Assembly: GCA_001683845.1 (NCBI GenBank) | Contig: LXQI01000007.1 | Coordinates: 1 to 64,000 of the forward strand | Reading direction: 5' to 3' | Length of the DNA stretch: 64,000 nt | Source of the DNA: Erythrobacter sp. ANT-B3C2 | Lineage (GTDB): Bacteria > Pseudomonadota > Alphaproteobacteria > Sphingomonadales > Sphingomonadaceae | Program-made: the position numbers and the translations under genes | The notes under the pieces: model-generated | What the model was told of the DNA's origin: nothing | The model's input: the letters and a program-made list of their open reading frames with translations, nothing else | The model's database searches: none | Shown here: positions 53,017 through 54,724 of the stretch, one piece after another | Layout: the number at the start of each line of letters is the position of its first letter | Numbering within the stretch: position 1 is the stretch's first letter

Positions 53017-54096
53017 TCACCGGTCCAGTGGCGCCTCAGCTTGCGATTGACCCTGAGCGGCGGTGCTCAACCCGCGCACCACTCCCATCGAGAACAAAGC
53101 ACCCTCCGCGGCCGCACTGATGCTCAGGCCGACCGGACCGAGCCCTGCCTCCCCAAGCGCTCTACCCACGGCATCGAGCCTGAATTGCGAGGAGGGGAAG
53201 GCGTCTACGAGGGCCAGCAGACTCCCCGCCATCATCCGCCCATCGAGCAGCGCAATCAGCAGGCCCGCACCCGCACCCAGCACGGCAGCAATGCTCACGC
53301 TCCGCCACATCCCGTCGCGGGCCAGGAACGCCGCCAGTCCCACGGCACCCCCGAGAACCAGGCCTTCGAACGCGCCCGCAAACTCTCCGATGGACCGGCC
53401 GAACAGCAGACGGAACGCGTCGCTGCCGATCAGATTGGCGAAGGCCCCGACAATCACGCCGCCCAGCATCCCGCCCGCCACCGTCCAGTACCATTTCCAC
53501 GGCCGGATGAACTGGAGAGCGGCGGCCAGGCCGGCTGCGATCCCCGCGCCCGCCACTCCGGCCGAAAACACGGAGACCAGCACAAGCACGATCAGCAACG
53601 ACACCGCTCCTCCACCGCTCGTCTGCGGCTGCGTGGTGCCGATAAAACCGTACAGCAGGCCGATCAGCGCACCGGCCAGCATCGCGCCCGCCGTTCCCGC
53701 CAGAGCCAGGCGAATGAAGCGCCCATCCGAAACCAGAACCGATGGCGTTGCGCCGGTGGCGATGTCCCGCACCGGCGCGAAGGGCTCGACGGGCGCGATG
53801 AACCGATAGCCATGCTTGGGCACGGTCTCGATATATTGTGGCATGCCCGCGCTGTCGCCCAGCGCGCGCCGCAAGGTCCGAATGGCTTGGGTGAGTGCCT
53901 CGTCGGTCACCGGAACCCCCCGCCACACCTCGTCCATGAACCGATCCTTGGTGACCAGATCTCCACCAGCCTCCACCAGCAGGATCAGCGCATCCATGTA
54001 GCGCGCGTTCAGCTCGACGGTCTGGCCGCCGCGCGAAAGCCTGCGATCGGACGGATCGAGGCAAAATGCCCCGAAACGCATGGCAGAATGGCTCAT
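53017..54096 (-). CDS. Winged-helix regulator fused to a multi-pass membrane domain
   Basis: A 359-aa protein. Residues about 5-105 are an OmpR/CadC-type winged helix ('RYMDALILLVEAGGDLVTKD', 'VPVTDEALTQAIRTLRRALG', 'YIETVPKHGYRFIAPV'). The rest is a Gly/Ala-rich hydrophobic region with about six or seven predicted TM helices (residues about 125-330), unlike CadC, which has one TM and a periplasmic sensor. No receiver domain is present, so control must come through the membrane part. It is divergent from a 180-aa membrane protein, the likely target. Start ATG 54096; ATG 54081 is an alternative. Confidence 0.85.
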   Translation of the reverse strand: MSHSAMRFGAFCLDPSDRRLSRGGQTVELNARYMDALILLVEAGGDLVTKDRFMDEVWRGVPVTDEALTQAIRTLRRALGDSAGMPQYIETVPKHGYRFIAPVEPFAPVRDIATGATPSVLVSDGRFIRLALAGTAGAMLAGALIGLLYGFIGTTQPQTSGGGAVSLLIVLVLVSVFSAGVAGAGIAAGLAAALQFIRPWKWYWTVAGGMLGGVIVGAFANLIGSDAFRLLFGRSIGEFAGAFEGLVLGGAVGLAAFLARDGMWRSVSIAAVLGAGAGLLIALLDGRMMAGSLLALVDAFPSSQFRLDAVGRALGEAGLGPVGLSISAAAEGALFSMGVVRGLSTAAQGQSQAEAPLDR

Positions 54097-54114
54097 TTCA
54101 GCGATTGCTCACTT

Positions 54115-54176
54115 TTGTCTCATGCCGCTCAGCCCCTGTTGCGGCCAGTGATGGCGCTCCGCTGCCGAGGAGACAA
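54115..54176. promoter_or_regulatory. Split inverted repeat in the divergent control region
   Basis: TTGTCTC (54115-54121) and GAGACAA (54170-54176) are exact inverted copies 48 bases apart in the 85-base region between the winged-helix and membrane-protein genes. The right copy overlaps the ribosome-binding site of the plus-strand gene. This could be paired half-sites or chance. Confidence 0.3.
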
Positions 54177-54181
54177 GAACC

Positions 54182-54724
54182 ATGACGAACACTGCCAACG
54201 AACGCACCCATGCGCTGCTCAACCCCTGGCGCCTGGTGGGCTGGGGCACCATCGCCGGTTTGATCGCGCTGCCTGCCATCGCGATGCGATTCACCAGCGA
54301 AGTCGATTGGGAGACGGAGGATTTCGTCTTTGCCATCGTGATGCTGGGCGGCGTGGGCCTGGCCTTCGAAATGGCGGTCCGCGCGAGCGGCAGCTGGGCG
54401 TACCGCGGCGGTGCGGCGGTGGCCCTGGGCGCCGGATTGCTGATGCTGTGGGCGAACGCGGCGGTCGGGATCGTCGGCAACGAGGACCAGCTGATCAATC
54501 TGTGGTTCAACCTGATCCCCCTCCTCGCGCTGTTCGGCGCCATCGGAGCGCGGTTCTCCGCTCCGGGCATGGCCGTGGCGATGGCGGCCACCGCTGCCGC
54601 ACAGTTCATGGTCGGTGTGATCGTCCATCTCCTCGGGCACTTCACTTGGCCGTTCACCCTGGTGTGGACCGCAGGCTGGCTCTTTTCGGCCTGGCTGTTC
54701 CGCAAGGCCGCCCGCACAGCCTAG
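54182..54724 (+). CDS. Multi-pass membrane protein of unknown function
   Basis: A 180-aa protein with about five TM helices, including '[20 protein letters not shown]', '[20 protein letters not shown]', '[20 protein letters not shown]' and '[20 protein letters not shown]'. I do not recognise a family. Short charged termini and an acidic loop ('[12 protein letters not shown]') are visible. GAGGAGA is well placed before the ATG. Its only neighbour in the control region is the divergent membrane-embedded winged-helix regulator, so co-function is inferred from position alone. Confidence 0.8.

Follow-up and report, generated by a model that had tools for sequence, protein, structure and literature searches.

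Gene content and topology at the locus

Within the 64,000-nucleotide stretch of Erythrobacter sp. ANT-B3C2 analyzed here (the window), two genes for membrane proteins diverge from either side of an 85-bp gap. The reverse-strand gene (positions 53017 to 54096) encodes a 359-aa regulator in which a winged helix precedes a polytopic membrane domain, with M6 as an alternative start. The forward-strand gene (54182 to 54724) encodes a 180-aa protein, here called the partner, and is preceded by a ribosome-binding site, GAGGAG, read from the sequence at 54167 to 54172 (forward strand). The locus is flanked by a kup-like potassium transporter gene and a guaB-like gene, both named by eye from their translations, and no kinase gene lies among these neighbors.

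The first 104 residues of the regulator (53785 to 54096, reverse strand) form a DNA-binding domain of the OmpR/ToxR winged-helix type, as identified by Pfam, PDB sequence search, and Foldseek. Trans_reg_C (PF00486) matches residues 24 to 99 (E = 7e-15; 55.3 bits against a curated cut-off of 26.2) and is found in 56 of 56 members of the regulator family; the nearest PDB sequences are those of ToxR/CadC (E ~1e-21), and Foldseek matches the winged helix to the ToxR-DNA structure 8b4b (E = 2.6e-6). The membrane domain spans residues 124 to 353 (53038 to 53727, reverse strand), based on AlphaFold2, conservation, and charge bias. The AlphaFold2 model (56 homologues; pLDDT 91) places six predicted transmembrane (TM) helices after the winged helix (residues 124 to 154, 163 to 196, 202 to 232, 242 to 261, 263 to 283, and 321 to 353), along with a re-entrant half-helix at 289 to 299. 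Positive-inside bias across the 56 homologues is consistent with an N-in/C-in topology, with both the DNA-binding domain and the C terminus inside. Model and charge bias alike indicate that there is no periplasmic domain, and neither Pfam nor AlphaFold2 finds a receiver domain in the 359 aa. A preliminary description of the window had proposed a DNA-binding domain fused to six or seven TM helices, in place of the single TM helix plus periplasmic sensor, and the model agrees with it on both counts. The matches shown by a fold search with the regulator all fell on winged helices, with no fold relative beyond the DNA-binding domain.

The proposal also depended on the C-terminal region being neither soluble nor variable. 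It is membrane-type and conserved, with Y149, E244, S292, E331, and many glycines invariant across the family and D226 and S166 nearly so. Judging from the predicted helix limits, Y149, S166, D226, E244, S292, and E331 would all lie in the outer half of the helices. Family-wide identity is 81% in the recognition region versus 44% in the TM region, and the weakly conserved parts of the protein are the linker and the extreme C terminus.

The partner had been described as an unrecognised five-TM protein across a short divergent region. It indeed matches no family in Pfam or NCBIfam and no PDB sequence, and its predicted fold has no relative in the PDB (best E = 2.2), but the predicted structure (pLDDT 93.6) contains six TM helices rather than five (residues 15 to 34, 45 to 68, 72 to 95, 104 to 122, 127 to 150, and 156 to 179). 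A strong positive-inside bias is seen here as well, again with both termini inside, and a conserved face (R-W..P..AM...VxWxxxDF...WxNxAVG.IG) is predicted to be periplasmic. Scattered Pfam matches among partner homologues involve various families with few members each and were judged to be chance. Homology between the partner and the TM domain of the regulator was rejected (hhalign probability, 1.4%).

The gap between the two genes holds a candidate operator of 35 bp, TTCAGCGATTGCTCACTTTTGTCTCATGCCGCTCA (54097 to 54131, forward strand), in which YTCA occurs four times as a half-site, at spacings of 11, 11, and 9 bp. It abuts the start of the regulator gene, and the partner ATG follows it by 50 bp. 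The window matches all 21 fixed positions, against at most 15 in shuffled controls, a comparison that would be circular if taken alone, since the 21-position pattern was derived from these same sequences. Searched with an operator sequence model, this genome contains a single strong site (E = 2e-8; next best, 0.1).

Co-occurrence of regulator, partner, and operator

We surveyed 401 genomes of the family, this one included. A regulator homologue is present in 79, a count that takes in homologues covering the TM domain plus partial copies and copies cut by contig ends, and thus in 78 of the 400 other genomes. The preliminary description had paired the two proteins and staked this on their co-occurrence in relatives, and the partner does adjoin the regulator in 62 of the 78 (47 divergent, 14 tandem, 1 convergent). 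Protein distances of regulator and partner are also correlated (Mantel r = 0.54; permutation maximum, 0.26). The surroundings of the pair vary between genera, and therefore the adjacency is not simply inherited as a block. The pairing is nevertheless not exclusive: the partner is not adjacent to the regulator in the remaining 16 genomes, 6 of which have no partner match at all, and 5 of these 6 retain operators at other genes. Some genomes carry the regulator alone and others the partner alone.

At one chromosomal site in the window's genus, three genomes (L110, L111, L114) have a lone regulator and two (L126, L127) a lone short partner, which suggests differential loss from an ancestral pair. 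In three related genomes (L020, L021, L025), a co-directional 274-aa four-TM gene (at about 607 to 1428 in L021) lies directly upstream of a lone regulator.

The operator tracks the regulator strictly. In all 49 sampled loci from genomes with a regulator (36 divergent, 1 convergent, 4 tandem, 8 unlinked), it precedes the partner start by ~50 bp; partner loci from regulator-less genomes never show it (0 of 15). Family-wide, the operator model detects sites in 71 of 401 genomes, all 71 with the regulator, and in 0 of 322 genomes without it (Fisher p about 1e-70, which overstates the evidence since the genomes are related). Eight regulator genomes fall below the operator threshold; weaker sites are present in seven of them, and the assembly of the eighth has a completeness of 73%. 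We had expected an operator upstream of every regulator, and this was rejected: many regulators without an adjacent partner have none at their own promoter, and autoregulation is therefore not general. The operator instead follows the partner wherever it is located, as expected if it serves the partner, as well as other targets. Taken together, the regulator almost certainly controls the neighboring membrane-protein gene via the candidate operator.

Shortened partner homologues also occur. Forms of ~90 to 110 aa with only the first three TM helices stand alone without an operator (the set L128-L135, L091, and L092), and two short homologues in this set adjoin a regulator with an operator. C-terminal four-TM forms of ~125 aa, with an operator present, are found in L184, L191, L210, and L213.

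Additional operator-bearing genes and wider distribution

Operators also occur upstream of other genes, at sites that were not used in building the operator model, which further contradicts an exclusive pair. In 19 genomes they precede genes for DUF4153 polytopic proteins; in five (L182, L194, L207, L212, L214) operator-like sites, inverted in two, precede dxs of the MEP pathway; and further targets are creD (two genomes), a 116-aa membrane protein (four), a B12-radical SAM protein (two), and second or shortened partner copies (several). Single cases include the gene for a TonB-dependent receptor and, in L252 (1110 to 2801), one for a serine beta-lactamase-family protein (PF00144) with an operator-like site 47 bp upstream of it. 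The end of the third half-site is usually 46 to 66 bp before the target start codon. Some sites, such as those on the recO side and at the B12-radical SAM gene, are beside genes without an envelope link, for about a dozen weak sites no target is evident, and most non-partner targets have no known function. The target set differs by lineage: DUF4153 genes in the window's closer relatives have no operator, and a DUF4153 search of this genome found none. Our initial view of the partner gene as defining the whole system was dropped once the DUF4153, dxs, and creD sites were found.

Regulator and operator recur in many soil and water bacteria. The regulator is present in Sphingomonas, Erythrobacter-like genera, Brevundimonas, Caulobacter, and Asticcacaulis, and also in Devosia, Pelagibacterium, Luteimonas, and a Woeseiaceae MAG; the operator accompanies it in Brevundimonas, Woeseiaceae, Asticcacaulis, and Pelagibacterium. 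For the first two of these, the product of the divergent, operator-bearing gene is an unrelated small protein instead of the six-TM partner (L292:938-1411, L297:970-1413, and L336:917-1414, with an N-terminal hydrophobic segment visible in L292 and L297), and therefore the link between regulator and operator is conserved while the target is exchanged. These small proteins have no Pfam match, and a suspected likeness to FxLYD was not confirmed by Pfam. In other Brevundimonas (L296:1110-1385, L303, L312), the operator is followed by a gene for a 92-aa protein that belongs to no known family.

Proposed mechanism and alternative explanations

We read the locus as a one-component, membrane-embedded regulator and its principal target gene with an envelope-maintenance output, a reading to which we give a probability of roughly 70%. 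Winged helices of the PhoB/OmpR type bind repeats head to tail, and those of the regulator would form such an array on the four YTCA direct repeats, most of them separated by one helical turn, which lie just upstream of the core promoter of the partner and against the regulator's own start. Binding would most likely activate the partner gene and repress the regulator; the position of the operator suggests activation of the target, and in divergent pairs its abutment on the regulator start points to autorepression. Because the regulator has no periplasmic domain, its six-helix membrane domain probably responds to membrane state, or to a cue that is lipophilic or comes from the periplasmic side. 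Sensing within the bilayer, as the preliminary description had supposed, may involve the conserved polar cluster in the outer half of the helices (Y149, D226, E244, S292, E331). The output would be an envelope-maintenance response delivered by the six-TM partner in nearly all lineages, to which some would add DUF4153, creD, dxs, and small membrane proteins. The envelope role is suggested by the creD target, by half-sites that resemble the cre/blr tag TTCAC-N6-TTCAC, and by the fact that most targets are membrane proteins.

Control could run the other way, with the regulator repressing the partner and the rest of the regulon until released by a membrane signal. We consider this unlikely. An operator that abuts the regulator's own start is in a typical repressor position, but the usual 46- to 66-bp interval recurs before the start codons of unrelated targets, and an A-rich position ~15 bp past the repeats likewise argues against repression. 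DNA-binding domains of the PhoB/CreB/CadC type on direct repeats near -35 are mostly activators. The absence of the operator from partners where there is no regulator favors an activator slightly and is not decisive.

Alternatively, the partner could be dedicated to the regulator as its co-sensor or inhibitor, so that the pair works only together, for which ToxS-ToxR is the model. Both products are membrane proteins, and the adjacency in 62 of 78 genomes and the correlated protein distances fit such a pair, but the 16 regulators without an adjacent partner do not, nor do the partners found without a regulator or operator. The partner, moreover, has its own operator-bearing promoter. Because regulators persist where the partner is absent, with operators elsewhere in five of those six genomes, we judge an obligate pair quite improbable, and the partner is better seen as a regulated output than as a required co-sensor.

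Finally, the poorly conserved linker and extreme C terminus might mark an ordinary CadC-like protein with a degenerate, functionless membrane tail and a merely inherited adjacency, but the strongly conserved TM domain with its invariant polar residues, the changing genomic surroundings of the pair, and the strict association of operator and regulator make this exceedingly improbable.

The way in which polytopic transcription factors sense their signals and act while in the membrane has received little study. Here the operator, the one-site regulon in this genome, and the natural variants (linked, unlinked, or with targets swapped) make signal, direction, and mechanism testable by simple reporters. 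The operator tag also offers an initial lead on the function of DUF4153, the partner family, and several orphan membrane proteins, and it ties dxs and creD to one regulator.

Comparison with known systems

The regulator shares with ToxR/CadC an N-terminal cytoplasmic winged helix of the same type and a one-component, membrane-anchored design. CadC controls the adjoining membrane-protein operon cadBA, and the partner gene would likewise be a neighboring membrane-protein target. In contrast to the one TM helix and C-terminal periplasmic sensor of ToxR/CadC, the regulator has six TM helices and a re-entrant segment; the operators differ, and the partner is not a ToxS-like single-TM protein.

The preliminary description had offered the locus as a candidate for an undescribed system, whose architecture would be distinct. 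Within the literature searched, no described system matches it, and the family is real and undescribed; as a class, polytopic membrane regulators, among them HigX, were already known (PMC10269533, PMC13384398). We found no published description of the regulator family in the literature searched, which covered few subscription journals, and nothing concerning it in the literature on DUF4153, on CreD in sphingomonads, or on membrane winged helices. With its DNA-binding domain and TM helices in one chain, the regulator belongs to a broad and mostly unstudied class: 27% of 50,302 predicted transmembrane transcription regulators have >2 TM segments, in a survey whose results and discussion do not name this family, operator, or regulon (PMC10269533). 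The nearest studied analogue in behavior, though from another family, is HigX of Caulobacter, a LytTR protein with four TM helices and no periplasmic domain that is found across alphaproteobacteria and binds promoters of cell-envelope genes at an inverted repeat, ATGTTASC/GSTACCAT, with no dedicated partner (PMC13384398, 2026). Both are polytopic, membrane-embedded regulators without a periplasmic domain, but in HigX the LytTR domain is C-terminal to its four TM helices, while here Trans_reg_C precedes six, and the TM domain and motif are different.

CreBC/BlrAB-CreD provides a third comparison. CreD, a protein of envelope integrity, is controlled through the cre/blr tag, and in Stenotrophomonas loss of creD harms the envelope (PMC4689548). 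Shared features are an OmpR-type DNA-binding domain and creD as a target, here in two genomes. The TTCA-type half-sites of tag and operator resemble each other in their YTCA core and 11-bp period, but the operator has a variable last base and three to four units; and whereas CreBC/BlrAB is a histidine kinase/response regulator pair, here a single protein without a receiver would act, with creD as a minor target. More tentatively, and with somewhat less than even confidence, the regulator's family may be the founder of a one-component response to envelope stress, with the compact six-helix bundle itself as sensor and a cre-tag-like operator driving envelope genes swapped by lineage (six-TM partner, DUF4153, CreD, Dxs); sphingomonads and other alphaproteobacteria would then have a counterpart of CreBC that works without a kinase.
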